From Bacteroidota bacterium (lineage in GTDB: Bacteria > Bacteroidota > Ignavibacteria > Kryptoniales > JAKASW01), in the NCBI GenBank assembly GCA_021845665.1, contig JAJZVO010000012.1, positions 1-64,000 on the forward strand: a DNA stretch of 64,000 nt. The letters run 5' to 3'. Positions within the stretch are counted from its first letter, which is position 1, and the number at the start of each line of letters is the position of its first letter. The notes below the pieces were generated by a model. That model saw only the letters and a program-made list of their open reading frames with translations, was not told where the DNA came from and made no database searches. Made by a program: the position numbers and the translations under genes. Positions 13,882-64,000 of this stretch are shown here, piece after piece.

Positions 13882-15501
13882 TCAACTGACCAGGTAATCT
13901 CTTGCAAGATTTACGTAAGCCGAGATCTGATGGACTTTCCACTCTTTTCCGTAGCCGAGTTCATCCGCGACAAGATCGGCGACAACCGGTGCCATCTCGA
14001 TACTCGCCTTTGCATCGAGGAGAAGCGCACGGGTTCTCCGGGCAAGGACATCTTCGACACTCCTGGCCATCTCGTGGCGCACGTGCCATACAACTTCTCC
14101 CTTTAGATACGGCAGGACCGGATGGATACGCTCCCCGAGATACGGTCTCTGGGAAATCAGCCTTTCAATCTCAGCACCATCTGAACCGTAAACGTAGAGA
14201 ATACCTTCCTGTTTCGCACCGGTGATTCCGCCATGAATTATGAGATTCTCAGTGACGCTCGCGCGTTCCTCCAGCCCGGCTACAAGCACGGCCTGATCGA
14301 CCGTATCCTGCCCCATTTTTCGATAGGTGGTCCATTTACCGCCAGCGATCGTAACGAGTCCTGAATCCGACACGAGCAATACGTGGTCGCGTGAGATATC
14401 CGAAGTCTTTTTCTTGACGTCGCTCTTTGCGAGCGGGCGAAGCCCGGCAAACACACTCTTGATGTCCGAGCGTTTCGGATCTTTCGCCATGTACTTCGCT
14501 GCATGGCGAAGTATGAATTCTATTTCTTCGTCAAGCGGCTTCGGCTCGAGAGACGCAGTCTTCATCGGTGTGTCGGTCGTCCCGACCAGAACGCGATCGT
14601 GCCACGGGACGGCAAAAAGCACTCTGCCATCTTCGGTCTGGGGAACCATGATGGCTGATTCTCCGGGAAGGAACTCTTTGCCGAGAATGATGTGGACCCC
14701 CTGACTGATAGCCACCATCTCGGGAATCTGCGGTTCGTCAAGCCTTCTTATCCGGTCGGCGAACACACCCGTAGCATTCACAGCGACGCGCGCGCTTATC
14801 TTGTACTCTCTTCCGGTTTCGCGGTCCACGGCAATCACTCCGTTTATCATGCCGCCCGATTTCGTCAGCGCAGTCACAGCCATATAGTTAACAGCCATTC
14901 CGCTCAAATCATACACAGTTTGGGCGAGATTAACTGCCAACCGCGAGTCATCGAATTGCCCATCATGGTATGTCACTCCTCCACGAAGACCGTCCGGTTC
15001 CACATTTGGGATGCGGTCGATGGTCTCCTCCCTGGAGATGAATCTCGATGGACCGAGGCCGAGTTTTCCAGCGAGACGGTCGTAGACTTTGAGCCCCGCG
15101 CCGTATAAAGGCTCATGCCACCAATCATAATTTGGAACCACAAACGACCTGTTCAGGACCAGATGAGGTGCGTTCTGCTTCATCAAGCCCCGTTCTCTCA
15201 GCGCTTCGATAACTAACGAAACATTCCCCTGCTGAAGATATCTTACTCCGCCGTGAACCAGCTTGGTGCTCCGGCTGGATGTCCCTTTCGCAAAGTCATG
15301 TTGTTCCAGAAGCAGCGTCTTGTATCCTCTCGATGCCGACTCGACGGCGGTGCCGAGCCCGGTCGCGCCTCCACCGATGATCACGATCTCCCATTCCTTC
15401 CGTTCGGACTCCAACCTTGATATAATGTCTTCACGCCGCAAAATCATTTTTCGCTTCTCTTCCATCCATTCCCTCGCTCTGTCCACGGCTTGGTCCTGCA
15501 T
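13882..15501 (-). CDS. glpD: Aerobic glycerol-3-phosphate dehydrogenase
   Basis: FAD-dependent, membrane-associated oxidation of sn-glycerol-3-phosphate to dihydroxyacetone phosphate, passing electrons to quinone. The dinucleotide fold is EIVIIGGGATGLGTAVESAS (FAD-binding GGGATGLG at about 43-50), followed by the family block GTSSRSTKLVHGGVRYLQQG. A conserved FAD-region motif GGKWTTYRKMGQD lies near residue 390, and a C-terminal GlpD helical domain follows. The length of about 539 fits the family (B. subtilis GlpD is about 555). The start is uncertain: ATG at 15501 is chosen, a TTG at 15510 and an internal ATG at 15447 are possible, and none has a clear ribosome site. I see no glycerol kinase or GlpF gene nearby. 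Confidence 0.9.
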   Translation of the reverse strand: MQDQAVDRAREWMEEKRKMILRREDIISRLESERKEWEIVIIGGGATGLGTAVESASRGYKTLLLEQHDFAKGTSSRSTKLVHGGVRYLQQGNVSLVIEALRERGLMKQNAPHLVLNRSFVVPNYDWWHEPLYGAGLKVYDRLAGKLGLGPSRFISREETIDRIPNVEPDGLRGGVTYHDGQFDDSRLAVNLAQTVYDLSGMAVNYMAVTALTKSGGMINGVIAVDRETGREYKISARVAVNATGVFADRIRRLDEPQIPEMVAISQGVHIILGKEFLPGESAIMVPQTEDGRVLFAVPWHDRVLVGTTDTPMKTASLEPKPLDEEIEFILRHAAKYMAKDPKRSDIKSVFAGLRPLAKSDVKKKTSDISRDHVLLVSDSGLVTIAGGKWTTYRKMGQDTVDQAVLVAGLEERASVTENLIIHGGITGAKQEGILYVYGSDGAEIERLISQRPYLGERIHPVLPYLKGEVVWHVRHEMARSVEDVLARRTRALLLDAKASIEMAPVVADLVADELGYGKEWKVHQISAYVNLARDYLVS

Positions 15502-15841
15502 TGCCGTCAATCACTTCGCTCACTCGATCGCCATCTCAGGCAAGAACTGTCCCGCAACCTCACAGTGCTCCCCAGACTCGTTGATTCTACTCCTATATAA
15601 GATTACGACTCCTTTCAGGATATGCCCCGCCGGATACGCCCGATTCCGCATTCAATACAAATTGTGCGCCATAACGACTATGTCCGGAATTGTATACCCT
15701 CTGAATGTCGACACGGGAACCAAACATCGTGATGAACGTTAACGACTTACGACTCCGAAGTTAACCATTATTTAATTTGCTTAAACTGCCGATATACTTC
15801 ATTATTCATCAAATAAAAACATTCACCTAACAGGAACTGTC
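15502..15841. other. Divergent promoter region, glpD / phosphoesterase
   Basis: About 340 bases between two divergent genes. The half next to the phosphoesterase is AT-rich (15750-15835) and is the likely promoter zone. I find only near-matches to TAnnTTTG (for example TTTAATTTG near 15773), so no box is assigned. Confidence 0.4.
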
Positions 15842-16828
15842 ATGAACAAAGTCTTGCCTTTGATCCTCGTCGCGATTGTTTCGTTCGGATTTTCCGGAAA
15901 ACGCGCGACCGGGACCTGGATTCCGAAATCTGTTTACCTCCCGAAATACTCTCACATAGTGCTGGTGATTGAGGAAAATAAATATTACTCAAGAGTGATC
16001 GGGAATAAGGACGCACCTTACATCAGCAACGTACTGGTGAAACGCGGAGCAAACCTGACACGCATGTTTGCCGACGAGCATAACAGCGAAGGGAACTATT
16101 TCTGGATATTCTCCGGCTCGAATCAGAACGTAGGCCATCACGACATGACTCCAACTCGGCTGAACAATCCGAAGTACCCATTCATGGCACCTAACCTGGG
16201 CGAACAGCTAATGAAGGCAGGATATACCTTCAAGGGTTACGCCGAAAGCCTCCCTGCGATCGGAGACACAGTATCGTGGGCCGGCAAATACGCCAGGAAG
16301 CATGTGCCATGGATAAGCTTCGGAAATCTCCCCCAGGGGAAAACCGAAGCCACGTCGTGCAATCTTCAATTCAAACAATTCCCGGGGGACTTCAACAAAC
16401 TCCCGACTGTTGCCATCGTGATTCCCAACCTGATCGACGACATGCATAGTGGAAAGCGCTCGATGCGTGTCAAGGACGGGGACACATGGCTGAAAGACAA
16501 CATCGGGAAGTATTACGAGTGGGCAAAGACTCATAACAGCCTTCTCATCATCACCTGGGATGAAAACAGCGACTGGTCACATTTCAGCGGCCTGACGAAC
16601 CCGGCCAGCAAAGACCGGGATATTCGTAACAGGATACCCACAATATTCGCAGGCGCGCACATCAAGCATGGGAATTACCGGGAAGGTAAAGGCGTCACGC
16701 ACGTAAATCTTCTTCGAACGATCGAGGCAATATACGGTTTGCCTAGGGCCGGATACCAGCAGAAGTACGCCCTTAAGGACGGGATCTCGAACGACCGCAT
16801 AATCAGCGACATCTTCAGCCGAAAGTGA
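15842..16828 (+). CDS. Secreted phosphoesterase (PF04185, acid phosphatase/phospholipase C-like)
   Basis: Exported phosphoesterase of 328 residues with signal peptide MNKVLPLILVAIVSFGFSG. Family motifs in order: SHIVLVIEENKYYSRVIG (metal-ligand EEN), FADEHNSEGNYFWIFSGSNQ (His/Ser-rich active-site region), LLIITWDENSDWSHF (metal-ligand DE) and a C-terminal THVNLLRTIEAIYGLPRAGY. PF04185 members hydrolyse phosphomonoesters or phospholipids; the substrate here is not determinable. A ribosome site AGGA lies upstream of the ATG. A second PF04185 domain occurs in the propeller fusion at 19063-21444. Confidence 0.87.
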   Translation: MNKVLPLILVAIVSFGFSGKRATGTWIPKSVYLPKYSHIVLVIEENKYYSRVIGNKDAPYISNVLVKRGANLTRMFADEHNSEGNYFWIFSGSNQNVGHHDMTPTRLNNPKYPFMAPNLGEQLMKAGYTFKGYAESLPAIGDTVSWAGKYARKHVPWISFGNLPQGKTEATSCNLQFKQFPGDFNKLPTVAIVIPNLIDDMHSGKRSMRVKDGDTWLKDNIGKYYEWAKTHNSLLIITWDENSDWSHFSGLTNPASKDRDIRNRIPTIFAGAHIKHGNYREGKGVTHVNLLRTIEAIYGLPRAGYQQKYALKDGISNDRIISDIFSRK

Positions 16829-19062: not shown

Positions 19063-21444
19063 TTAATCTCCCAGCTTACTTGAAATTATCGAGTACCTTG
19101 GAGCAGGCATGTTCGTCCCTTTGATATATCTCCAGAGGATTTCGTTGAACTCTCTCGGAGGCACCGCATCCTCTACGCTGAAATTCCAATGGTCCATTAT
19201 GCTTTGGCCGTACGCACCGTTGGGATTCCTGGCATGTATGTTTATCATCGGCTCCACTGCTTCGTAAGGAGCGTCATCCGGCTTCATCGTGAACGAGTTG
19301 TACATAGGTGTAGCGGCTGCATCGTACTGGCTCATCGGCGGCAATCCGAGAATGAGCTCGATTGTTCGAAGCATCGACGCAGTGCTGTACATCGTTTTAT
19401 CGACGTAATGACGTTTGCAGTATGGACTTATTACCATCGCTTCGGTGCGATGGGCATCTACATGATCGGCCCCGGCCTGGGCGTCATCCTCTATAGAAAA
19501 GATCGCGGTATGTGGCCAAATCTTGCTGTGCGAGATCCGGTCCACAAATAAACCGAATGCGTAATCGTTCTGTGCCACCATGGCTTGCGGAGTATGAGCT
19601 CCCTTCTTCGTTCCCCATGTGTGGTCGTTCGGGAGCCATATGATGCTGAGCTGCGGAACTCTATTCTCCGCAAGAAGCTTTGTGAAATCCTTATTCCATG
19701 CCTCATAGCGTCGGACATCCGAGTAGGCCAGATCCCAGGCGCGGTACCATGGATCGATGTGACCAATAAGTGCCTTTTCTCCCGGCACGTCCGGCTTGTT
19801 AGTATCCGGACTGCTTTCGCAAAACTCCCCATAGTCCCTGAAATAGATGTTGTGCCTCAGGCAGAGGTTCCAGATAAAGCCTTCCGCAGGTGAAGAAACC
19901 GGCTGGCCTCCCTGAAAATCGTACTTCGCACCTCTGTTTGCATAGTTTGACGGCCAGCTTTTGACAACGTAGTCGGTGGCATAAGCGCCGTCGGACCAGT
20001 TATGGCCATCGGCGCTGACCTCGGCGTTGCAGTAAAGGTTGTCGAGAAGCACAAAGTTGCGAACAATCTTATGCAGATTGGGCGTGACCTTCTCTCCGAA
20101 AAGTGTCAGATTGGGATCGCCGTTTCCCCTCTTGATGTCGCCGAATACCTGGTCGTAAGTTCTGTTCTCCTTGATAAAATAGAAAACGTACTTGATCGGG
20201 GATTTACCTCCGACCCTGTCGGGAATCGGATTATCGCCGTTGTAGGGAGCCTGCTTCAGCTGATCGGGACGGTAGGGGACGTCGGCATAAACTTCCTTTG
20301 TGTACTTGTCGAGAGTCTTTGCGCCGGGAAATTTAATAAATGAGAGCGTGCCCTTCAGGAGGTTGCCGATGTATTCGGGTCCATGACTGTTCAGCGGATA
20401 ATTCGGATTGGGAAAAGACCTGCTTCCCTTTCCATTTAATACGAGGATCGTCCCGTTATTCAATTCTTTGGCCGTAGTCGGATACCATTCCACCGGGATG
20501 AAGCCGATCGGAATGGGTTTATCGATGTTAGAAATATTTACCACCGTCACCATATTGTTGTCCGCGTTCGCAGCAAGCAGGACTTTTCCGTTGGGCGAAA
20601 CACAAACCGAGTTGGTTGTAGAACCTTCGGGAGCGTCGGGATAAATCGCCGTCGAGATTGTCGCGACGACAGTGCGGTCTTCGAGATTCAACTCAGTTAC
20701 GCTGTTCGCATTGGCGTTTGCCACGAAAGCGTAATGACCCCGCACTGCAATGTCGGTGGGATGGGGTCCGGTCGGCAGCTCATACAGCAGGCGGGTCCCT
20801 TTGAATGCTTCGACCTTCCTGGAACTCCACATTGAAACAAGGAGTGTCCCATCCTTGAGAAATCTGCAATAGTAAGGCATCCCGTTAAGTTTCTTAACTG
20901 TAATCTTCTTTGTAGTGAAGTTGTAATACCGTAGGGTACTATCTCCCCTGAAGACCACGGCGAGACATTTGCTGTTCACAGCAAGGCCGGCCGCCCAGTC
21001 GTAAGGTCCCCTGGCACGATGATCCACCATTCGCGGCGGGGCAAAGTGAATTGTCTGCATTGGCACCAGCTTCCCGTTTGTCAGGTCAAAAGTATACACA
21101 CAGTTTGCGTTTCCACCTGAGACATAAAGTTTTGAGCCGTAGAACTGGATGCCAAGCCAACTATCCTTGAGAACGATTCGCTGAACCACCTTGCGCTCTT
21201 TCAGATTCACGAGTTGGACGCCGGGCTCAGAAAACCCCGACTCCTCGACGGCAAGATACTTCTGGTCTGGAGACATCGCGGCGTTCAACGGAAGTTCTCC
21301 GAGCCTGATCGATGTGCCGGCCGGCGAAAGCCACCAGCCATTAGGAAGAAGCACCCTATTGCCGTGCGGGCCGGGAAGGCCGGCAAAAGCGGCAGTGCAA
21401 GTAATAGCTACAATTCCAACAATTATTCCGATTCGGTTGATCAT
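19063..21444 (-). CDS. Secreted beta-propeller/phosphoesterase fusion (YncE-like + PF04185)
   Basis: Exported two-domain protein of 793 residues with signal peptide MINRIGIIVGIVAITCTAAF. Residues of about 40-370 are YncE-like propeller repeats (AAMSPDQKYLAVEESG, IAVRGHYAFVANANANSVTE, SVCVSPNGKVLLAANADNN). From about 405 a PF04185 phosphoesterase domain follows: KYVFYFIKENRTYDQVFGDI, CNAEVSADGHNWSDGAYATD, PHTAIFSIEDDAQAGADHVD and the end motif STASMLRTIELILGLPPMSQ. The ATG has AAAGGAG nine bases upstream. It is the last gene of a co-directional series with GH76 and a TonB receptor. The propeller may target or regulate the esterase; that is inference. Confidence 0.88.
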   Translation of the reverse strand: MINRIGIIVGIVAITCTAAFAGLPGPHGNRVLLPNGWWLSPAGTSIRLGELPLNAAMSPDQKYLAVEESGFSEPGVQLVNLKERKVVQRIVLKDSWLGIQFYGSKLYVSGGNANCVYTFDLTNGKLVPMQTIHFAPPRMVDHRARGPYDWAAGLAVNSKCLAVVFRGDSTLRYYNFTTKKITVKKLNGMPYYCRFLKDGTLLVSMWSSRKVEAFKGTRLLYELPTGPHPTDIAVRGHYAFVANANANSVTELNLEDRTVVATISTAIYPDAPEGSTTNSVCVSPNGKVLLAANADNNMVTVVNISNIDKPIPIGFIPVEWYPTTAKELNNGTILVLNGKGSRSFPNPNYPLNSHGPEYIGNLLKGTLSFIKFPGAKTLDKYTKEVYADVPYRPDQLKQAPYNGDNPIPDRVGGKSPIKYVFYFIKENRTYDQVFGDIKRGNGDPNLTLFGEKVTPNLHKIVRNFVLLDNLYCNAEVSADGHNWSDGAYATDYVVKSWPSNYANRGAKYDFQGGQPVSSPAEGFIWNLCLRHNIYFRDYGEFCESSPDTNKPDVPGEKALIGHIDPWYRAWDLAYSDVRRYEAWNKDFTKLLAENRVPQLSIIWLPNDHTWGTKKGAHTPQAMVAQNDYAFGLFVDRISHSKIWPHTAIFSIEDDAQAGADHVDAHRTEAMVISPYCKRHYVDKTMYSTASMLRTIELILGLPPMSQYDAAATPMYNSFTMKPDDAPYEAVEPMINIHARNPNGAYGQSIMDHWNFSVEDAVPPREFNEILWRYIKGTNMPAPRYSIISSKLGD

Positions 21445-21641
21445 TTACTTGGTTCTCCTTTATAACTTAACCGCATGCTAAATGTTAGCTCTCCTGCCGT
21501 GCATTGGCAAGGTCCCACTACCCAAAAGTTCCATATCTTCTGACAAGGAAGGGGGCAGTTGCACGTCAATGTCAATTGGGATAGACGTCGGTGCCACCGA
21601 TCCGCACCGGCGGCACCGCTCCTGTGGTGGGGAAGCACCAC

Positions 21642-23078
21642 TCATTTAAGAAGAAGCATTTTTCTTGTAATCTCACTCCTGCCTTCTCTAAGCGTATAGA
21701 AGTAGACTCCACTCGCATATCTGTCCATGTCGACATCGAATGCGTACTCCCCCGCAGGCTTATACCCATCCGCAACAACTTTGACGAGTTGACCCAGGAC
21801 GTTGTAAATATCGAGGCTCATCGCTCCGGGCCGGTTCAAAGTCACCTCAATATCAGTAGATGGGTTACACGGATTGGGATAATTCTGGTATAAATCAAAC
21901 TTATGCGGCACATCGGGTCCCACCTGATTGATTGCCGTAACTGCGCTGTCACCTAATACATACGCAGCCGACTCGATGAGCGTAACTCCGCTCAGCTCCA
22001 CCGATAGACTGATGCTTCCTGATGGAGTCTGTTGCCAGTTGTCGTTGAATAGCCCGGTCCCCGGTTGGCGCCCATATTCCCAAAGTGTATCGGCATTATT
22101 CAGCATGAAGTCGTAGTAACGTGCACCCAAAGAATCGTTGGGCGTAAGCTGGTGAATCAGTTTAGCTAGATAATACACATAGATGCCGTTAAATAATCCG
22201 CCGTCGCCGGTGCCTTCTGACCGCAGGATGCCATCAGGTGTGGCAAATAGTGTGTCGGCTACATCTGCTTCCCTCTCCGCCTCCTGCAAATAAGTTGTGT
22301 CTCCTGTGATTTGGTAGAGATAGAGCGATGCGCCGAGATATGTGCCGTAATTATACGAATAAGACCCGTAGTTAGGTGTGCCCACGGAGTCTTGATAAGA
22401 AATGCCATCAAGTATTATACCTGTTTGGGGATCGACAAGGTTCGACGCAATCCAGGCATGGATCTTTTCGGCCCAGGACAGATCGGCAGTATCACCGGTA
22501 TCTTCGTATAGCTTGCACGCCAATATGCAGGCCGGCGCATTGGCAGGAACATTTTTGTACAACACTTTTGTGCTCCACCGAAAGCCTCCCCCGCCGGGAA
22601 AATCGCTCCAGCCACCCTGAATCGTTTGCCAAAGCGAATTCGTTTCATACATATAGTACGCATCGTGCGTCACCTCGTATGCTCTCAGGAACGACACTGC
22701 CATCCACTCCATGTCGTCGTAGTAGCTGTCTGTAAATCCGCCTGAATGATACACACCCTGGTACAAAGAACTCATCCTGGTAGAATAGAAGGAGCTTCCG
22801 GTCCGGCGATATCCCATCACCAGAGCATCCATTGCGTGCGCCTGCCACCAATAATTCCTCGTCTCGCTGTGAGCGGAACTTGAGAAATAGATATCTCCCA
22901 GTGGAAACCAGAAATCCTTGTCAAGTGTCGCCTGCGCGCTGTCCGCTCTTTCGGACCAAAGCCCACCGGCACCTATGGAACTGTCTGGCACCATCACACT
23001 CCCGGCCACCGCGTACGTTGAACTTGCCAAGATAACGATTATAAAAATTCCAACCTGGTGCAATTTGAACATTTTCAT
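21642..23078 (-). CDS. T9SS-exported GH76 endo-alpha-1,6-mannanase-like enzyme
   Basis: Secreted glycosidase of about 478 residues. The signal peptide is within KLHQVGIFIIVILASSTYAV. An (alpha/alpha)6 GH76 fold is indicated by YWWQAHAMDALVMGYRRTG, the paired catalytic aspartates in SYYDDMEWMAVSFLRAYE (Asp121-Asp122), GGFRWSTKVLYKNVPANAPA, and SYNYGTYLGASLYLYQITGD. The C-terminal 85 residues are a T9SS sorting domain (KFDLYQNYPNPCNPSTDIEV to RKMLLLK). GH76 enzymes cut alpha-1,6-mannan such as the yeast backbone. Several in-frame starts exist (23093 GTG, 23090, 23078, 23072); 23078 is a compromise. A small hairpin (21624-21641) follows the stop. Confidence 0.88.
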   Translation of the reverse strand: MKMFKLHQVGIFIIVILASSTYAVAGSVMVPDSSIGAGGLWSERADSAQATLDKDFWFPLGDIYFSSSAHSETRNYWWQAHAMDALVMGYRRTGSSFYSTRMSSLYQGVYHSGGFTDSYYDDMEWMAVSFLRAYEVTHDAYYMYETNSLWQTIQGGWSDFPGGGGFRWSTKVLYKNVPANAPACILACKLYEDTGDTADLSWAEKIHAWIASNLVDPQTGIILDGISYQDSVGTPNYGSYSYNYGTYLGASLYLYQITGDTTYLQEAEREADVADTLFATPDGILRSEGTGDGGLFNGIYVYYLAKLIHQLTPNDSLGARYYDFMLNNADTLWEYGRQPGTGLFNDNWQQTPSGSISLSVELSGVTLIESAAYVLGDSAVTAINQVGPDVPHKFDLYQNYPNPCNPSTDIEVTLNRPGAMSLDIYNVLGQLVKVVADGYKPAGEYAFDVDMDRYASGVYFYTLREGRSEITRKMLLLK

Positions 23079-23193
23079 CCCTGCTCTCATCACAAGTCGT
23101 CCTGTTTAATCCTGGTTTGCCGTTTCGATAATATAGCCAGGCGACCGGGATGGCCTCAAGTCATCGCAGGCCATTCCGGTCTTCCTGACAATT

Positions 23194-24909
23194 CTACTTA
23201 AGAAGGAGCATTTTCCTGGTGATAGAGGATGAACCCTCGCGCAACGTGTAGAAGTAAACTCCGCTCGCGAATCTGTCCATATTCACATTGAACGTGTACT
23301 CACCCGAGGCTTTATAGCCTTGGCTTACGACATCGACTAATTCACCGAGGACGTTGTACACCTTAAGACTCATCGTCCCGGGCCGATTGAGTGTCACTTT
23401 AATCTCAGTCGTCGGGTTGAACGGGTTCGGATAATTCTGGCTAAGCGCAAACCTGTTCGGTACATCGCTGTGAATCTGGTACACCGGTGTCGCAGTAGGA
23501 TACCAGTTGAGATCACCGAGCGGTTTCCCGTCAGTCCCTGCCGTCAGAAGGGCCTTGTCCGAGTAGGTGAGATTCTCGGGAACCGGGTAACCCTGTGTCT
23601 GCGCCCAGTTCTTCGGAACGCCGGCGAAGAGATTGCCGGGATACGTCGGAAGCTGAGTCCAGAAGTAATCGCTCGCATCGTTGTTTGACCAGATAAGCTC
23701 TTCGTATTTGACGAGATCCGCGAGAGCCGGAGTGGTTAGAGTCGAAGAGAAGCCCGGGTTGACGCTATCGTTATTCGCAGCTACCAGGTGCGAGCCACCC
23801 GGTTCGTGTGCAAAGAGGTACTGCGTGGTTGAATCCATGAACACCGGCGGCGTGAGCGGATCGTGTGTCGTATCGTTATAGGAAGTCCAGAAATTAAGGA
23901 GCGCCGAGGGCCAGCAGTATACATTATTCATCACATTCACATGCCTGTCAGCCTCGGTAAGATTGAATGGAGGCTGAGTCAGAGCGCCGAGCGTATCGAG
24001 AACCACTATGTTCGGATAGTCGACCTTGCCGCCGAACTGATTCGTCGTGTCCTGCGTCATGTCGCCGGCATGCGCTATGAGTCCGTAGAAGATATTGTTC
24101 TCAATATCCTCGTTGACTGCCTGCTGGACTTTCATTGGCGGGCCGCTGCCGAGGAAACACGTGTTGTGATCGAAGCGAATGTATTCTGCGTACCAGTTCG
24201 AACCGAAATAGCTTCCGTTGACGCTGAAGAATGTATTGTTTTCGTACCAGAGAGTGTCGACAGGACCTTTAGTCATCTCCCAGTAGAGGGCTCCCTTCGC
24301 CCACATGTAACTCTGTACATTTCTGAACTCGCAATTTGTGACGTAGAGGTTGTCGTAAACGCCCTCGTGATACGTGAGGTTCGTGTTACCTCCATAGAAG
24401 TTATCGACTATGCAATGGTTCAAGCGAATCGTGGTGTAATTTCCGGTAGAGCTGATGAGTGTGCTTGTTATAGCGACGCTATCAGGACGTTCCCCGAGCA
24501 AATACACGCCATCCAATGACACGTTGCCGGTATCGCAGGCGATAAATGGATCCGGGGTGGTGTTGTCAGCGTTGACTATCGGCTCAATCACAGGGGGATG
24601 GCCGGTCACCGGATTTATTTCTCCGACGATGTTAAGGTTATAGAACTGGTTCATCGTTATAGTGTTGTCGAGATAATACACCGTGTCGACGGGACCATCT
24701 TCATACAAGACGTAAACACGGTTGGGATCTTTCCTCAGTCCGGTCGACGTAGTATCGCCGGAAATTATTTCGAACAGATCAGGCTGACCCTGCGCATTGA
24801 GTGGCGGGACGTACATCGTGTCCGCTGCGGTTTGAGCGAACGACCTCCTCGGAACCGCAAACAGCATCCCTATCGCTGCTATTAGCAAGGCGATTCGTAC
24901 AGATTTCAT
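23194..24909 (-). CDS. T9SS-exported protein, probable parallel beta-helix
   Basis: Secreted protein of 571 residues, preceded by AGAGGAG. Signal: MKSVRIALLIAAIGMLFAVP. The central part (about 90-330) has repeating short strands and N/D-rich turns typical of right-handed beta-helices (NCEFRNVQSYMWAKGALYWE, EYIRFDHNTCFLGSG, VNEDIENNIFYGLI), as in pectate-lyase-like proteins, but I see no catalytic signature. The last 85 residues are the same sorting domain as GH76 (RFALSQNYPNPFNPTTEIKV to RKMLLLK). It sits between a TonB receptor and GH76, so a glycan-binding or -cleaving surface role is likely. Function unassigned. Confidence 0.8.
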   Translation of the reverse strand: MKSVRIALLIAAIGMLFAVPRRSFAQTAADTMYVPPLNAQGQPDLFEIISGDTTSTGLRKDPNRVYVLYEDGPVDTVYYLDNTITMNQFYNLNIVGEINPVTGHPPVIEPIVNADNTTPDPFIACDTGNVSLDGVYLLGERPDSVAITSTLISSTGNYTTIRLNHCIVDNFYGGNTNLTYHEGVYDNLYVTNCEFRNVQSYMWAKGALYWEMTKGPVDTLWYENNTFFSVNGSYFGSNWYAEYIRFDHNTCFLGSGPPMKVQQAVNEDIENNIFYGLIAHAGDMTQDTTNQFGGKVDYPNIVVLDTLGALTQPPFNLTEADRHVNVMNNVYCWPSALLNFWTSYNDTTHDPLTPPVFMDSTTQYLFAHEPGGSHLVAANNDSVNPGFSSTLTTPALADLVKYEELIWSNNDASDYFWTQLPTYPGNLFAGVPKNWAQTQGYPVPENLTYSDKALLTAGTDGKPLGDLNWYPTATPVYQIHSDVPNRFALSQNYPNPFNPTTEIKVTLNRPGTMSLKVYNVLGELVDVVSQGYKASGEYTFNVNMDRFASGVYFYTLREGSSSITRKMLLLK

Positions 24910-25073
24910 TATTTTTCTCCTCTTGTTTGACTGTTTTGTTGTGATACACTCGGGAACAAGCGTCCCGGGTTTTCAGGGCAACTCCACCCCTGGTATGCAT
25001 TTTTCATCTGAATAAGCCTCTCATCACCTCCAATCATTCGCTCTTTCATAAACTTGCAGATGTTAAATCGTAA

Positions 25074-28031
25074 TCAGAGACTCCACCGCAATCCAAGATC
25101 CGCAGTCATCCCGTATGACGATTGAGACGTGGGAAACCCGTTGGCCTGAACTACATAGATGTCGCTCGCACCGTTCAGATCGTTCAGATCCATGTAAACC
25201 TGAATGTTGTACCAGGGTAGGTCTTGCTTGATGACCGCGTCCCAGCGGAGATAGCTGCTCTTGTACGAACGAAGTTCTGGCCAGAAGTTCGTCCCGTTGA
25301 AAACGTTCGACTGGTAGATCATCGAAGCGACGGCTGAAAATCCCTGGTAATCGTAGCCTACCGACAGGTTGACAATATCGTCCGGCTGATCAAGGAGCCT
25401 GTCGGTGTAAAACGTATCCACGTATGAGGGTTGGAATGTCGGATAGACACCTCGGCGGGTAATGGTATACGGATATTTAGCTCCGGAAAAAATGTGGGTA
25501 TAGTTAACGTTCAGGACCAGACCGCTCAACACAGAGGGGAGGTACCAGAAATGAGTCTGCCAATCTACTTCTGTTCCCCAAAGATTCACACGGTGAGGAT
25601 CGTTAACGTCTGTCGAGATCTGGTATGCTTTCGCGCTTGCAGGAACGCCCGGATACAATGCCGGGTTCGAGATGTGACTTGTTCGCGGGAAGATGAAATT
25701 GTCGATCTGCTTCAGGAAGCCATCGACCGAGAAGAGTCCCATGGTATTGTTGTAGATTGAAAATGCCAGGTCGTAATTTTGAGAGTGCGCCGGCTTCAGA
25801 GCATAATTGTTCCATGTCACCGAAGTCGAACCGACGAAGACGTCGATCATTGGGATGATATCGCTGAAACTGGGATAGGCAAGCGTGTTCGTATACGATG
25901 CCTTGGCCTGGAACCATGACAAGGGTTTGTATGTCAGGATCGCGTCAGGCAGCCAGAAACCGTGATATTCCGTGAACGTGGTATCGGTGTGCTGCAACGG
26001 CCTTGGGTAGGGATTGGGCACACTCGCATCGTAATAACGCGATCCTGTATATGATGTCTCAAGATCCTGGTAGCGGACGCCCGGTATGAACGTCAGCTGT
26101 GGCCCGATATGAACAGTGGCCATCACGTATCCCGCGCTCCTGTATTCATTTCCCTTATAATTGCTTGCGCCGCTTTGATATGGATCCGGGCTGAAGGCTC
26201 CCGCCAGGACGTATCCCCGCGAGAGCATGTAATTGACAACGGTACTGACTGTCTGTGACATCAAGCTCAAATTAGTCGGAACTCCCATCGGGTAAGTTCC
26301 CCCCAGAAATTTCCCGTAACTGAATGCCGGATCCTCATAGGCCGTGAAATTGAGGGGAGAGTTGTTGGTGAAATTGTAGGGAGGCTTAGTCATCCACGGA
26401 AATTCATTTAGCACCTGCTGAATCGCGCTCCCCGGTCCAAAAGAAGGACTGGCGTCGAGGACACCGTTTCCGTAATTGTATCCATAATACCGGCTCGTTG
26501 TCCTGTACATACCTCCGAATTTCAGCTGGCCCGAAACCAGATCCGACAGTGTGAAATCCCTGTCTAAATCCAGTGAAGCGGAGTATTCATTTGATTTATT
26601 GAAACTGCTTGAAGCGGTGATTGAGTGGAAGTCCATATTGGACGGCTGTACAAGGCCGATCGCATCCTGAGCGACGAGGGCTGGGTCCACGCTGCTGGAA
26701 TTGACGGGAAATCCGACGGAACTTTGTGTGAGGCCTGCGCTCCAGCTTCCAGTATTGTTGTCATCCGAGTAAGAGTGTGAAAGTTTCAGATCGATATTCA
26801 CCAGATTGAAATCCTGTTTGAACTCCAGCAAATTTGTGGCAACATCCCTCCTGTCAGGCGAATACGAGGCGCCGTAGGTAATCTCATTGCTTCCCACCGG
26901 AGGGATACTGTAGCTCTGAGTGCGGTCCACGGTTCTTGTCAAACCCCTGCTTAAGAAGTTCATGAAATCGATCTTGCCATTTGGAAGCCTGTAATCCATG
27001 ACAACGGTAGCATCGAGTAGCTGCTGTTCACTCGGAGCGTATGTCAGTGTAAAATTGTCGAGCGATATCGCGTTCGGCACGCCGATGTTTTTCGTCAACA
27101 TGCTGTAGCTGCCGCCGAACTGATCCGAGGTAAGGTCTATTCTCTGTGTTATGATTTGTGCGAGGATTCCGAATTTCTTGGCGAAGAACCTGTCCCCTAC
27201 AGTTCCACTCAGCTTGTAATTATTGTAGGAATTCTGAAGGTTGTCGTAGCTGCCCTGCACGTTCAGCCCAACTTCAGGTCCGCCTTCAGGATTCTGCTTG
27301 GCCTCCCTGAGCTGAAAATTTACTACGCCGCCAAGGAATGCCGCGTCCATATCGGGAGTGGCTGTTTTGTACAGCTCTATGCCGCTGAGAGAGCTCGACG
27401 AGATCATTGACAAATTGACGCTGCGTTCGCTGGAACTAGTGGGCGCCATCTGCACGCCGTCAATCATAATCTCGTTGTACTGCGGGGCCAATCCACGTAC
27501 AGCAAGCTCGGTACCTTCCCCTCCCTGCCTCACGAGGTAGACTCCAGGAAGCCTTCCCACCGATTCTGCGGCGTTCGCGTCCGGCAGCTGTCTGATCCTG
27601 GCAGCTGAGACTGCGTTCATAATCCTTGTGGATGACAGCTCTTCGTTGATTGCTGCATTCTGACCACTTGCCTGTGCAGTGACGACGACAGTCTTCCCTT
27701 TAACTGCTACAGCTTCAAGTTTGAAATCGAGTCTCAGCGATTCGCCGCTGGTAATTTGCATCTCCTCTTTCAGGGTTCTGTAACCTACATAAGTCACGCG
27801 AACGGCGTAGGAACCGGGGGGAACGCCTGGGATGACATACCGGCCGTTTAAATTTGTAGCCGCGCCCAGGCTGGTCCCTTCGACCAGTACATTTGCTCCC
27901 GGCAACGATTCACCGGTCTGGGCATCGGCAACTTTGCCGTACATTCTTCCTTTGGTACGGCATAATGCATATGTAGGGACGAAAGCTATCATCAAAGCTG
28001 CGTAAAAAGCCGTAAGCTTCTTATTCCTCAT
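25074..28031 (-). CDS. TonB-dependent receptor (Caulobacter/Xanthomonas carbohydrate type)
   Basis: Outer-membrane importer of about 985 residues. Order: signal (KKLTAFYAALMIAFVPTYAL), CarboxypepD_reg-like domain (GKVADAQTGESLPGANVLVE to GYRTLKEEM), a plug with RIRQLPDANAAESVGRLPGV, EGTELAVRGLAPQYNEIMID and ELYKTATPDMDAAFLGGVVN, then a large barrel ending QSSYGMTADLGLRWSL. The plug signatures resemble the TIGR01782 class often used for oligosaccharides. The ATG at 28031 has AAGGAAGAAGG upstream; an earlier in-frame start at 28097 would place 22 residues before the signal. It is the first gene of the GH76 locus, with a promoter about 300 bases upstream. Confidence 0.9.
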   Translation of the reverse strand: MRNKKLTAFYAALMIAFVPTYALCRTKGRMYGKVADAQTGESLPGANVLVEGTSLGAATNLNGRYVIPGVPPGSYAVRVTYVGYRTLKEEMQITSGESLRLDFKLEAVAVKGKTVVVTAQASGQNAAINEELSSTRIMNAVSAARIRQLPDANAAESVGRLPGVYLVRQGGEGTELAVRGLAPQYNEIMIDGVQMAPTSSSERSVNLSMISSSSLSGIELYKTATPDMDAAFLGGVVNFQLREAKQNPEGGPEVGLNVQGSYDNLQNSYNNYKLSGTVGDRFFAKKFGILAQIITQRIDLTSDQFGGSYSMLTKNIGVPNAISLDNFTLTYAPSEQQLLDATVVMDYRLPNGKIDFMNFLSRGLTRTVDRTQSYSIPPVGSNEITYGASYSPDRRDVATNLLEFKQDFNLVNIDLKLSHSYSDDNNTGSWSAGLTQSSVGFPVNSSSVDPALVAQDAIGLVQPSNMDFHSITASSSFNKSNEYSASLDLDRDFTLSDLVSGQLKFGGMYRTTSRYYGYNYGNGVLDASPSFGPGSAIQQVLNEFPWMTKPPYNFTNNSPLNFTAYEDPAFSYGKFLGGTYPMGVPTNLSLMSQTVSTVVNYMLSRGYVLAGAFSPDPYQSGASNYKGNEYRSAGYVMATVHIGPQLTFIPGVRYQDLETSYTGSRYYDASVPNPYPRPLQHTDTTFTEYHGFWLPDAILTYKPLSWFQAKASYTNTLAYPSFSDIIPMIDVFVGSTSVTWNNYALKPAHSQNYDLAFSIYNNTMGLFSVDGFLKQIDNFIFPRTSHISNPALYPGVPASAKAYQISTDVNDPHRVNLWGTEVDWQTHFWYLPSVLSGLVLNVNYTHIFSGAKYPYTITRRGVYPTFQPSYVDTFYTDRLLDQPDDIVNLSVGYDYQGFSAVASMIYQSNVFNGTNFWPELRSYKSSYLRWDAVIKQDLPWYNIQVYMDLNDLNGASDIYVVQANGFPTSQSSYGMTADLGLRWSL

Positions 28032-28329
28032 ACCTTCTTCCTTTTTGCATGGTGCAAATTCCATCCAATTCAGACACACAAGCTTCGGCGACGACACAAA
28101 GCTTCGCTACCTCAATCCCATAGATTCTTCCCGGCAAATCGGTTGCCGCTTCCATGAAATTGACACTTCAGAATTCTGTGCCGGTTGTTTTCCGGGCAAA
28201 GCTCTTATCCGCCGTGCCGTTCTGCCTGCGCCTGCCACCGTTCTGAGACGCATTACAGTTCCGTGAGCCTCACTTTTCCAGGCAGATAACCTGTCAAATT
28301 TGTTCGGCACATTGTATACGATTTCACCT

Positions 28330-28359
28330 CAAATTTAGTGTACACGTTTTAAGTGCCAA
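28330..28359 (-). promoter_or_regulatory. Bacteroidota-type promoter of the mannan locus
   Basis: On the minus strand TTGGCA (TTG at 28357-28359) is followed after 19 bases by TAAATTTG (28330-28337), an exact TAnnTTTG -7 box identical to the one of the TetR operon. It points toward the TonB receptor at 28031, leaving a leader of about 290 bases that could carry regulation. No operator palindrome is evident. Confidence 0.6.
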
Positions 28360-59664: not shown

Positions 59665-61077
59665 TCAGTATGTCGAAGTAAGTGCCGGATCGGGCACCGA
59701 GTTGACTGTGGTCTTCTTATACAAATCGCCGGAAGTTTGCGCCGGAGTGTTCGGATTGGCAGTGAGTTCGTTCGTCGGATAGAAGAACCGCTGCGGGAAA
59801 TCGGAACCGCGTGTCGGCGTTAGCTTAACGGTAGTTGCTCCCGATGTGTAAACGATCTGGTAGTTGATTCTTCTCAGGAAATTGAAGAGTTCAACCTGCG
59901 GGAAGAGAGCCATGTACTCTTCGTTCCAGATTGTCTGCAGGAGGGCGCTCTGAGTGGCAACCGCGGCTTCGGTACCCGTGAACGTTGCTGTTGAATCACC
60001 AAACGTGTTGTTATTGTAGGTGATCGCGGCGTTGAGGTAAGTAACAGCGTCCTTCTGGTCGTTCTCGCGTGCGTACGCTTCAGCAATCAACAAGTTCGTT
60101 TCAGAAGCCCTGAATATCGGGAACTGGGCAGTAGCCGAAAAGCCCTTGCTATAATTGAGATCAACGGGGCTTGCTGAAGTATCGAAGTAATAGTTCATCT
60201 GATTGCTCATGCCATAGGCCTCCAGCATGGGTATCATGAAGCTCTTACTTGCATCGATGTAGCCGCTTCTGTCATACACTCCGAATGAATACCAGAGGTT
60301 CATATCGCCGTTGTACGTCCCGCTTGTATGGAGGAACGTCAGATCCTCTGAACCGTCGGTAGCGATAATTCCCTTCTGGCCCCAAGCGATCACGTTGTTC
60401 AGATCTGCAGTGGAGTATTTATCGTAGCGCGCCATCTGCATCTCAAATTGGGCCTTTGCGGTATAAGCCGCCGCGAGCCATTCTGCGGGACTCCCCGCCG
60501 AGTTGAAGATATCGTCGGAAAGCTTCGCGTTGTTTGAGTTTAGCAGCGCAATGCCGGTATCCAATGTTGCCTGAACTTCGCTGTAAACCTGGATCTGGGG
60601 ATCGAACTTCGGCGTCGTAGTCACCTTCGGTTCTGCAGCCTGAGAGTACGGGACTGCTCCCCAGAGTGCAGTTATGTTCCCCATCTGAATTCCCTCGAGG
60701 ATTTTTGCTGCTCCCTCAAGGTTCTTCTGCCCATTGGCCGCTGCTTCCTGTTCACAAAGGCGAAGGTTATATATAACGCTGTTATAGGCATTTGCCCAAT
60801 CGTTGGCATAGTCCTGGGCCGACGTTGAGTAAACATAATAGCCCTGGAACTGTCTTGATGAACCTGTAGCTGCCTGTCCCCACAACGAGGCCAGTTGAGA
60901 AGGAAAGCCTTCCATGAATTCATCGAAGGTACCTTCCGATCCGGCGAATAGTTGTGGAGCAGGTGCACTCGTAGCGCCGTACGGGTTCGTGGAGTAGCCC
61001 TTCGTGAACGAAGTGCAACCGACGAGGGCCACGCCGAAAAACGCCAGTACTGCGACGTATGTTAAACTTTTCTTCAT
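59665..61077 (-). CDS. SusD/RagB-like nutrient-binding lipoprotein
   Basis: Surface lipoprotein of 470 residues acting as the lid of a SusC pore. Lipobox: FFGVALVGCTSF. TPR-like helical core: WANAYNSVIYNLRLCEQEAA, KILEGIQMGNITALWGAVPY, EWLAAAYTAKAQFEMQMARY. C-terminal region: FRASETNLLIAEAYARENDQ, IWNEEYMALFPQVELFNFLR and PTRGSDFPQRFFYPTNE. The pattern is closest to the SusD-like_2 branch. AAAGGGAGC precedes the ATG. It follows SusC by 13 bases and ends at the strong terminator. Confidence 0.92.
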   Translation of the reverse strand: MKKSLTYVAVLAFFGVALVGCTSFTKGYSTNPYGATSAPAPQLFAGSEGTFDEFMEGFPSQLASLWGQAATGSSRQFQGYYVYSTSAQDYANDWANAYNSVIYNLRLCEQEAAANGQKNLEGAAKILEGIQMGNITALWGAVPYSQAAEPKVTTTPKFDPQIQVYSEVQATLDTGIALLNSNNAKLSDDIFNSAGSPAEWLAAAYTAKAQFEMQMARYDKYSTADLNNVIAWGQKGIIATDGSEDLTFLHTSGTYNGDMNLWYSFGVYDRSGYIDASKSFMIPMLEAYGMSNQMNYYFDTSASPVDLNYSKGFSATAQFPIFRASETNLLIAEAYARENDQKDAVTYLNAAITYNNNTFGDSTATFTGTEAAVATQSALLQTIWNEEYMALFPQVELFNFLRRINYQIVYTSGATTVKLTPTRGSDFPQRFFYPTNELTANPNTPAQTSGDLYKKTTVNSVPDPALTSTY

Positions 61078-61090
61078 ATTGCTCCCTTTC

Positions 61091-64000
61091 TTAGTAATTC
61101 AGCGCGATTGAGAATATCCAAGACCGGACGCTTGGGTTGTTGAAGTAATCCAGACCCTGTCCATTCGTGGGACCGGTCAGGTTGGCCAGCGGATCTACGC
61201 CGCCATACTTAGTCCAAAGCGCCAGGTTGCGGCCGATAACGCTGAGCTGCAAGCTCTGCATTCCGATCGCCTTCAATGGCACGGTGTAAGAGAGAGACAC
61301 CTGCGCAAGTCGGACAAAACCACCCGGCTGAATATACTGCTCTGATGGACCGGTGAAACCGGAACCAGGACCGTCGTAGAAATAAGACTCGTCTACAATA
61401 ACGTTTCCGGCGCCGAAGTTATGCACGTATCCTCTGAAGGAGTAGGTGCCGTCGGCGTTCTTCCGGAATGCCGCGCTTGCCGGCATCTGATTCGCCGGGA
61501 TTCCCCAATCTTCGCCCTGAGCCATCTGAGCGACTGTGTAACCGTCATAGTTCTTGAGCGTGTTGGCCTGCTGCGCGGTGATCGTCGTCCACCAGTTCTG
61601 GAAAGCGGCTTTCCCGAAGTAGGAAAGAGCACCCTCGGTACCGTTCCAGACTTGACCGCCGACCTGGAAGTCAAATCTGAATCCAAATGTGAACCGGTTG
61701 AACCGGAAGGTGTTTGAAATGGACGCGATATACTTCGGATTTGGATCACCGATCACGCCAGGTGTGGCGGCATCTCCAACTGGGAAGCCGTATCCCGGAG
61801 CAGTTGAGTCGGTAACGTTTAGAGCCAGCGTGCCGTTCGGGTTTTGATCCCACCTCGTACCATAAAGGACACCGACCTGCTGACCGAGGATAGCCTCAGA
61901 CGCGGGGTCTGAAAATCCGGCGAGGAACACGCTCGTTACTCCGGAAAGATCGTAGACTATATTATGATTCGTTGTCCAGTTGCCGATAGTTTGCCAGGAG
62001 AATCCACCCGTCCTGATCCAGTTGACGGTGACTTGAGCTTCGTAACCAACGTTGCTCAGTTTTGCCGCGTTGGAGTTGATGAAGCTGTAGCCCGACGACG
62101 GCGCCACGTTAAGACCAAGGATAGCGTTAGTCGTCAAATCGTGGTAGCCGGTCAAGCTCAACTCCAGCCAATCTTTGAAGAGATTCACATCGAGACCATA
62201 TTCGAATTCGGTGGTCTTCTCGGGGGCCAGTGCGGCATTGCCGAGCGTTGTCGAAGCGACCACGCCGCCGCCGTAGTATTGCAGACCGATTGCAGGTCCG
62301 AAACCGTTGCCGATTACCGGGTTGGCAACTACATAATTTGCAGTCTCGTAAGCACCGGGCTGGACCGCCGCTGTTCCGAAAGCTGCTCTCAACTTGCCGT
62401 AGTTGATGATCGAATTATCCTTGAACATCGGGAGCTGTGTAAATTCCCACGCAGCGCTCACCGAGGGATAAAAGAAGAGTGAAGGGGCGCCGGGACCGTA
62501 GGTCGAAGAACTCTCGTCCCTGCCAGCAAATGAAAGGAACAACTGGCGGTAGAAGTTCAAGTTCAATTGGCCGTACATTGCGGCATCCCGAGTGATTATC
62601 TTCGACTCACCAGGTGCGTACGAGGCGGCATTGCCGAGCGTCGCAGGGGCCGTCGGGATAATGTAAGTGGTAGCGATGATGCCTTCGTTTTGCAGCTGCG
62701 TATCGTCCAGATGGAAACCGAGCAGCAGGGTCGAGGAGAAAGCATTGGAGAACTGATGCGTCGCCCGGCCAATCAGATCGGTGTTCACCATATATGACGT
62801 GTTGAAATTCTTGATCAACTGTCCGAGCGGTTGTGACGCGTCATACGGAGCCAAAACGCTGCTTTCGTGGTCCCCGATGTAGTCGACTCCTGCCCTGTAT
62901 GTGAAGTTCAACCAACTCATCGGCTGGTAACTCAGAGATCCTGAGCCGGTAAAATGATCGATCGCCACGTCTGTCGGGTTCATATAAATCGAGAAGAACG
63001 GATTGTCGTATCCCATTCCGAGGCTCGGATCTCCTGAACCGTTCCTATATGTCCTCTGCACTCCGGGAGTAACCGCGCCGGTGGGAGAAACATAGTTAAC
63101 AAGGTAAGGAAGATTATTGAAGTCCGGCGGCGTACGGTACGCACCGAGCAGCAAGCCTGAAATGTTAGAGCCTTGTTCGATACGGCTCGATGAACTGTTC
63201 ACGTAGGCCGCATTGATGTCTACTGTGAGATTCTGAGCAAAAGATCTTGTGAAGGAAGAACGAATCGAAGTCATGTCATATGAAGAGTTCGCCTTGACTA
63301 CGCCGTTCTGACCGAGTCTGTCAAGATCGAGATAGAAATTGCCGTTCTGATCTCCGCCGCTGATAGTTGCACCATATTCCTCGGAAACTGCTGGCGCAAA
63401 GATCTGGCCTGCCTGATCATAAACTGCTTTCGAGTTCTTCTGAGTGATCGGTGCATAGGGATAGTTGTACGAAAGGACGTCTGCACCGCCCGACCTCGCC
63501 GAGATCTGATCTCCCCAGCTGAAAGGCGAATTCCAGAGATAAGCACCGTTACCGCCTTGTCCGAACTGGTTTTGCAAAGGAAATTCTCTCAACAGATTGT
63601 CGACCTGTATATTGCTTCTGAGAGAAATATTGACTTTTCTGCCGGGGGAGTAGGAACCACTCTTCGTGGTTATCACGATGACGCCGTTGGCGCCCTGAGA
63701 TCCCCAGATAGCAGCGGCGGAAGGTCCCTGGTATATTTCGACGGACGCAATATCCTGAGGGTTAATGCTGCTCAAAACCGACATCGCAGAGGCACCTGCG
63801 ACATCGTTGGCTCCCATACCTTGTCCGTTCGAGTTGGTCATGTTGAGGCTGCCGATAGTTCCGCTGAATACGGGCTCGCCGTCAACTACGATCAGCGGCT
63901 GGTTATCGCCTTGGAGTGAACGAATACCACGAAGTACTATTCTCGTAGCCGATCCCGGGTCGCCGCTGGATGGTACGGCGAATACGCCTGGCGCTTGTCC
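61091..64000 (-). CDS. SusC/RagA-type TonB-dependent receptor, N-terminus outside the window
   Basis: Partial gene; the open frame continues past base 64000, so the signal and N-terminal domain are missing. Visible from the plug: RIVLRGIRSLQGDNQPLIVV, DGEPVFSGTIGSLNM, DIASVEIYQGPSAAAIWGSQ and GANGVIVITTKSG, the SusC signature. The barrel runs about 850 residues and ends NNPSVRSWIFSIALNY. Paired with SusD 13 bases downstream, it imports an oligosaccharide or peptide; the substrate is not evident. Confidence 0.93.
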   Translation of the reverse strand, partial: GQAPGVFAVPSSGDPGSATRIVLRGIRSLQGDNQPLIVVDGEPVFSGTIGSLNMTNSNGQGMGANDVAGASAMSVLSSINPQDIASVEIYQGPSAAAIWGSQGANGVIVITTKSGSYSPGRKVNISLRSNIQVDNLLREFPLQNQFGQGGNGAYLWNSPFSWGDQISARSGGADVLSYNYPYAPITQKNSKAVYDQAGQIFAPAVSEEYGATISGGDQNGNFYLDLDRLGQNGVVKANSSYDMTSIRSSFTRSFAQNLTVDINAAYVNSSSSRIEQGSNISGLLLGAYRTPPDFNNLPYLVNYVSPTGAVTPGVQRTYRNGSGDPSLGMGYDNPFFSIYMNPTDVAIDHFTGSGSLSYQPMSWLNFTYRAGVDYIGDHESSVLAPYDASQPLGQLIKNFNTSYMVNTDLIGRATHQFSNAFSSTLLLGFHLDDTQLQNEGIIATTYIIPTAPATLGNAASYAPGESKIITRDAAMYGQLNLNFYRQLFLSFAGRDESSSTYGPGAPSLFFYPSVSAAWEFTQLPMFKDNSIINYGKLRAAFGTAAVQPGAYETANYVVANPVIGNGFGPAIGLQYYGGGVVASTTLGNAALAPEKTTEFEYGLDVNLFKDWLELSLTGYHDLTTNAILGLNVAPSSGYSFINSNAAKLSNVGYEAQVTVNWIRTGGFSWQTIGNWTTNHNIVYDLSGVTSVFLAGFSDPASEAILGQQVGVLYGTRWDQNPNGTLALNVTDSTAPGYGFPVGDAATPGVIGDPNPKYIASISNTFRFNRFTFGFRFDFQVGGQVWNGTEGALSYFGKAAFQNWWTTITAQQANTLKNYDGYTVAQMAQGEDWGIPANQMPASAAFRKNADGTYSFRGYVHNFGAGNVIVDESYFYDGPGSGFTGPSEQYIQPGGFVRLAQVSLSYTVPLKAIGMQSLQLSVIGRNLALWTKYGGVDPLANLTGPTNGQGLDYFNNPSVRSWIFSIALNY

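Follow-up and report, generated by a model that had tools for sequence, protein, structure and literature searches.

SusC/SusD pairs, which occur in the polysaccharide utilization loci (PULs) of Bacteroidota, consist of a large TonB receptor with an N-terminal carboxypeptidase-regulatory domain, followed by a dedicated partner gene that encodes the SusD lipoprotein; a genome can hold many such paralogous pairs, which co-diverge and are coupled to glycoside hydrolases (PMC7782687). In the BtuB-BtuG system for vitamin B12 uptake, the TonB receptor works with a surface partner outside the SusD family, the lipoprotein BtuG, which acts as a lid, and the ligand is a small cofactor (PMC10404256). The alpha-mannan PULs of Salegentibacter and B. 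thetaiotaomicron use GH76, GH92 and GH125 enzymes, with an endo-cut at the surface followed by trimming in the periplasm (PMC9213526). LamH, a mycobacterial GH76, cleaves lipomannan near its phosphatidylinositol anchor (PMC11233589).

The locus described here lies in a 64,000-nucleotide stretch of Bacteroidota DNA (the window), and our main result is a tandem of a TonB receptor and a beta-helix protein with a type IX secretion (T9SS) tail. We would class this tandem as a variant form of TonB uptake with a lid, which would operate as SusCD and BtuBG do, while by sequence it is a member of neither. As in SusC/SusD pairs, a dedicated adjacent partner gene co-diverges with a large receptor carrying an N-terminal carboxypeptidase-regulatory domain, and many paralogous pairs per genome are coupled to glycoside hydrolases. 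However, the partner is a T9SS-tailed parallel beta-helix and not a SusD lipoprotein, the receptor belongs to TIGR01782 and not to TIGR04056, and the genomes contain little or no SusD. TIGR01782 carbohydrate receptors of Xanthomonas and Caulobacter belong to the same subfamily and take up sugars without SusD, and they are not known to have a T9SS beta-helix protein as partner. The resemblance to BtuB-BtuG lies in a non-SusD surface partner whose role as a lid we infer for the present protein by analogy, although this protein is T9SS-tailed and associated with sugar polymers, unlike BtuG.

As in the known alpha-mannan PULs, mannan-degrading enzymes are present (GH76 in the window, GH92 and GH125 in sister loci), and we propose a comparable surface endo-cut followed by periplasmic trimming. 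The window's locus differs in having GH76 alone, together with a phosphoesterase and no SusD, and in sister loci there are also genes for the catabolism of glycerol and inositol. LamH provides a precedent for the proposed substrate, as a GH76 acting on alpha-1,6-mannan joined to a phosphatidylinositol anchor, but it remodels its own cell envelope, whereas the GH76 of the window is secreted and presumably catabolic. A literature search, which covered mainly open-access journals, found no description of a receptor/T9SS beta-helix pair or of a PUL that degrades phosphatidylinositol mannosides (PIMs).

Genes of the locus

Four genes on the - strand make up the locus, and Pfam and NCBIfam searches agree with the names that the original prediction had given them. 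The TonB-dependent receptor (25074..28037, 987 amino acids), the SusC-like half of the module, has CarbopepD_reg_2, Plug and beta-barrel regions (PF00593, PF07715, PF13715). It is TIGR01782-like, scoring 313.9 bits against a cut-off of 310, and reaches only 59.1 bits with the SusC-like family TIGR04056, for which the cut-off is 368. Downstream of it is the right-handed beta-helix partner (23194..24909, - strand, 571 amino acids), with a signal peptide and a T9SS type A C-terminal tail; PF18962, corresponding to that tail, is its sole Pfam match, and the same search found no match to the SusD family (PF07980 / PF14322).

The third gene (21642..23093, - strand) encodes a T9SS-tailed GH76 endo-alpha-1,6-mannanase of 483 amino acids (PF03663, 142 bits), in which the catalytic Asp pair at 125-126 (DD motif) is intact and whose nearest solved relative is the alpha-1,6-mannanase 6shd (E 5e-70). 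The T9SS sorting domain (TIGR04183/PF18962) scores above cut-off in both this enzyme and the beta-helix protein. The last gene (19063..21444, - strand) is a fusion of a YncE-type propeller and a PF04185 phosphoesterase, 793 amino acids long, with a signal peptide and no T9SS tail, and is predicted to be periplasmic. The phosphoesterase domain scores 40.7 bits and the propeller matches are weak. The protein aligns with the acid phosphatase 2d1g, and the E-N and DD..H motifs are conserved, with metal-site motifs intact (KENRTYD at 425, EVSADGH at 475 and IEDDAQAGADHVDAHRT at 651); we take these residues to be the metal-binding E-N and D-D and the Ser/Thr nucleophile region.

The gaps between the four genes are 164, 100 and 197 bp, and contain no terminator-like sites on the coding strand. 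One promoter had been proposed for all four, and the window does hold a single promoter-like site of the Bacteroidota type, TTG-N19-TAAATTTG (pattern TTG-N19-TAnnTTTG; 28330..28359, - strand), about 290 bp 5' of the receptor start. Since 0.33 exact matches to the pattern are expected by chance in the window, we go only as far as calling co-transcription of the four genes plausible. No regulator or sensor was seen among the annotated neighbors in the window; a LacI-type regulator, recognized by sequence, is present in sister loci (L074 854-1876; L292).

A conserved receptor and beta-helix tandem

The conserved unit is the TonB receptor with the T9SS beta-helix protein encoded directly downstream. 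The beta-helix protein, as the constant partner of the receptor, is the most interesting feature of the locus, a point that the original prediction overlooked when it treated all four genes as the unit. Among the 13 genomes of the genus in our collection, two have that four-gene order, the window's species and G003, the G003 contig stopping within the phosphoesterase gene; in a third, G004, a contig break splits the set. GH76 occurs in six of the 13 genomes. We reject the four-gene unit because GH76 is exchanged for GH92 or lost in related loci, and because the phosphoesterase is distributed throughout the genus.

In 12 genomes of the genus, 88 of 124 receptor matches have a beta-helix homolog as the next gene downstream, and 88 of 105 beta-helix matches have a receptor upstream, the spacing in these 88 pairs being mostly 50-300 bp. 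Some of the 36 receptor matches without a detected partner lie at contig ends. Up to 15 pairs were detected per genome, 15 of them in the window's own, which holds about 15-20 copies of the module. SusD is represented in the genus by zero to two weak matches per genome, and the only genome without the beta-helix family, G008, has two. One member of the genus carries the label Candidatus Kryptoniota. In some pairs (L131, L156, L146 and L082) the gap between receptor and partner is ~1.2-1.6 kb, and in L082 it contains a GH125 gene.

In wider searches, a profile of the partner core has matches in 79 of 294 genomes of the class (39 of 152 genera) and in 50 of 395 genomes sampled from the phylum as a whole; named relatives include Ignavibacteria, Melioribacteraceae, one Calditrichota and one Bacteroidales MAG. 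In 20 other genomes of the class, selected by the beta-helix protein alone, a receptor lies upstream within 370 bp in all 20 loci. Another 18 loci, taken from genomes of the class and of other families, have the receptor immediately upstream of the partner in 14 cases, immediately downstream in two and at a non-adjacent position in two. In Latescibacteria, none of five loci has a receptor upstream of the partner.

Receptor and partner have also diverged together. Mirror-tree comparisons of their distances give r of 0.87 (13 pairs), 0.91 (12 pairs) and 0.89 (10 pairs), with p of 1e-4 each, and the correlation is lower for the T9SS tail (0.50-0.74). Each comparison was made within a single genome, so the species tree cannot create the correlation. 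A receptor and its capture protein would show such a relationship; co-duplication of adjacent genes could also give rise to it.

Pairs adjoin glycoside hydrolases, as in polysaccharide utilization loci: GH76 in the window and carbohydrate-active enzyme-rich neighborhoods elsewhere. In the genus, genes that follow other pairs include those for GH2, GH18, GH92, GH125, GH94, GH3, glucoamylase and RCC1-repeat proteins, whereas no GH family was among the 25 commonest families in a same-size set of control loci without pairs, a non-random set made up of phosphoesterase-paralogue and stray GH76 loci. If the tandem functions as we propose, Ignavibacteria, Kryptoniota-like lineages and some other Bacteroidota take up polymers through a receptor pair that would escape PUL finders based on SusC/SusD, and the tandem would be a simple marker for finding such loci.

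Sister loci and the candidate substrate

The receptor of the window belongs to a clade of seven loci (support 100/99), six of which contain alpha-mannan enzymes (GH76, GH92 or GH125), in agreement with the original assignment of the locus to alpha-mannan. GH76 is found in the loci of G000, G003 and G004, and GH92 takes its place in G002:C74 and G006:C166. The outgroup locus, G007:C42, has GH125, GH92, GH26 and two GH76 genes, with no phosphoesterase in the stretch read. At G006:C29, the position of GH76 or GH92 is occupied by a lone T9SS tail remnant of 101 amino acids (L063:6828-7133), which suggests loss of the enzyme.

The two GH92 sister loci (G002 and G006) run on into glpK-glpD-glpF and iolBCDAEG. 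In G002, GH92 and the phosphoesterase are followed by a 721-amino-acid protein, glpK, glpD, glpF, a LacI-type regulator, iolB, iolC, iolD, an iolA-type methylmalonate-semialdehyde dehydrogenase, iolE, iolG, a second GH92 and a sodium symporter. The extended operons of both genomes span contig breaks: that of G002 crosses a break inside GH92, both pieces of which are 95-96% identical to the G006 gene, and in G006 the same genes are spread over three contigs. In NCBIfam searches iolB, C, D, G and glpK score above their cut-offs, and IolE scores below (218.5 versus 290). Among the 13 genomes, glpK of this type occurs only in G002 and G006, and iolD only in these and G010, where another receptor/beta-helix pair heads the iol genes. 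The 721-amino-acid protein is exported, is encoded in each GH92 locus after the phosphoesterase and before glpK (L276:963-3128 and L074:5741-7906), and has no Pfam match and no convincing PDB match; possibly it is an unrecognized glycoside hydrolase.

The joint presence of genes for mannose, phosphate, glycerol and inositol favors mannosylated phosphatidylinositol-type molecules over plain phosphomannan. By analogy with the sister loci, we consider the probable natural substrate of the window's locus to be a mannosylated phospho-glycerol/inositol conjugate, as in lipomannan, phosphatidylinositol mannosides or GPI-type anchors. If this is right, the sister loci point to a concrete substrate class, with bacteria recycling mannosylated phospholipids. 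The phosphomannan originally predicted retains its two elements, mannan and a coupled phosphoesterase, but is probably too narrow given that two sister loci add glpK, glpD, a glycerol channel and an inositol pathway.

An ordinary alpha-mannan locus for fungal phosphomannan, in which the phosphoesterase removes mannosyl-phosphate and the beta-helix protein serves as an accessory that binds glycan and has no lid function, is the alternative that fares best, and we consider it rather unlikely. The GH76 is nearest to 6shd, a fungal-mannan enzyme of the kind described in PMC9213526, and the sister receptor in G007, with its GH125, GH92, GH26 and two GH76 genes and without a phosphoesterase in the stretch read, sits in a locus resembling known alpha-mannan PULs. 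This reading, however, would leave unexplained both the glpKDF genes and iol pathway of the two GH92 loci and the constancy of the beta-helix protein across loci whose enzymes differ.

The window's species and its two closest relatives are without iolD and the glpK of the GH92 loci, so use of inositol and free glycerol is not obvious there. A glpD-like glycerol-3-phosphate dehydrogenase gene, identified by homology among the loci and named from sequence inspection, lies nearby (13882..15510, - strand); it is syntenic in the GH76 species, and is linked to the phosphoesterase also in the GH92 loci and in G007. The window's species may therefore use only mannose, phosphate and, through this gene, glycerol 3-phosphate.

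Role of the beta-helix partner

An AlphaFold2 model of the partner core, made with an alignment of 85 sequences, is a parallel beta-helix (pLDDT 88, pTM 0.91), and the partner model also shows the T9SS tail domain. Because a fold search with the full-length model matched mainly T9SS tail and Ig-like domains, the search was repeated on the core, for which the closest PDB structure is 7dmk, a PL6 alginate lyase (E 4e-7, TM 0.51). No remote sequence relatives of the partner were found in PDB.

The PL6-like fold, and the conservation of some charged residues (D218, R196, H248 and R322), raise the question of whether the partner is itself a surface enzyme, such as a lyase, epimerase or hydrolase, with the tandem reflecting co-transcription of enzyme and transporter. 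We judge this unlikely. PL6 lyases require a catalytic Lys/Arg pair, but no lysine column is conserved above 55% among the 85 sequences, so the partner lacks this signature and a function as a polysaccharide lyase is disfavored. The most conserved residues (D218, T226, N272 and N329, then H248, R322, G465 and D466) look largely structural: the invariant positions are mainly Asn, Thr, Gly or aromatic residues, in repeating N-N-x-F/Y patterns that resemble helix stacking. Moreover, the same protein accompanies many unrelated enzyme sets. Of the full-length partners, 46 of 49 in the genus and 78 of 80 in a wider set carry a recognizable T9SS tail. The absence of a conserved lysine, the structural appearance of the conserved residues and the T9SS tails lead us to favor a binding or capture protein, which we propose as the functional counterpart of SusD.

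On this basis, the T9SS would carry the partner to the cell surface, where it may form a complex with the receptor and capture ligand over it, and the receptor would import the ligand with TonB energy. Paralogous copies of the pair would be coupled to different sets of catabolic enzymes, and the copy in the window would handle chains of alpha-1,6-mannosyl units joined to a phosphate ester. Surface GH76 could cut the mannan, the pair could take in the fragments, and the periplasmic propeller-phosphoesterase could then strip phosphate from them. We place slightly better than even confidence in this model as a whole, namely a SusC/SusD-like pair with a T9SS partner whose copy in the window acts on a mannosylated phosphate-ester substrate. 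The bolder combination, that the T9SS beta-helix family replaces SusD across several Bacteroidota classes and that the window copy and its sisters are dedicated to mannosylated lipids of the phosphatidylinositol type (lipomannan, PIMs or GPI anchors), which they would degrade as far as mannose, phosphate, glycerol and inositol, is more tentative, and we hold it to be somewhat short of an even chance.

The phosphoesterases

The coupling to a phosphoesterase that had been predicted is seen in at least four of the six core loci of the receptor clade (G000, G003, G006:C29 and G006:C166), and the enzyme is inferred to be present at the G004 and G002 loci too, across contig breaks. Its tree does not match that of the receptor. 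Phosphoesterases of the GH92 loci cluster with some of the copies in the genus (100/99), and those of the window type with a different set (98/100). These groupings mean that the enzyme was recruited twice or replaced once, and in either case its presence has been maintained.

All 13 genomes of the genus have one to three close copies of the phosphoesterase, including genomes without GH76. Copies commonly adjoin dap genes, at a long distance from any mannanase, which indicates that the enzyme is not mannan-specific. Lengths of the genes beside these paralogues had led to a guess of a Ugp-type ABC transporter, which was rejected because the genes are dap, methylmalonyl-CoA mutase and PALP.

A second exported PF04185 phosphoesterase (328 amino acids, 128.5 bits) is encoded in the window at 15842..16828 on the + strand. 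Its orthologues are 91% identical in G004 and 87% in G003, and among the loci compared it is confined to the three species whose version of the locus has GH76; possibly it is an accessory enzyme. Phosphate scavenging, with the receptor importing organic phosphorus and the mannanase incidental, is quite unlikely, for although two PF04185 enzymes lie near the receptor and no genome of the genus lacks the phosphoesterase, which often occurs apart from sugar enzymes, the sister loci hold carbon catabolism (glp, iol and GH92) and the closest outgroup relative of the receptor adjoins mannosidases, with the phosphoesterase absent from the stretch read.

PF04185 phosphoesterase genes also lie downstream of further receptor/beta-helix pairs (L127:18-935 and L140:1-1206). 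A protein of ~790 amino acids without a Pfam match, 77% identical between L292:6240-8606 and L147:17397-19801, lies near other pairs, once ahead of an inositol operon.

Other genes in the window

The four-gene locus is without SusD, as had been stated, but the window as a whole is not: a SusC-like receptor gene adjoins a weak SusD (PF07980, 21.5 bits) at 59665-63841 on the - strand. A second such pair lies on the same contig at about C86:65740-70520, and these two weak PF07980 matches are the only SusD matches of the window's genome. An MFS transporter gene (PF00083; 28728-30086, + strand) is divergent from the receptor gene and shares its intergenic region, an arrangement in which the transporter is retained in G004 and G006:C29.
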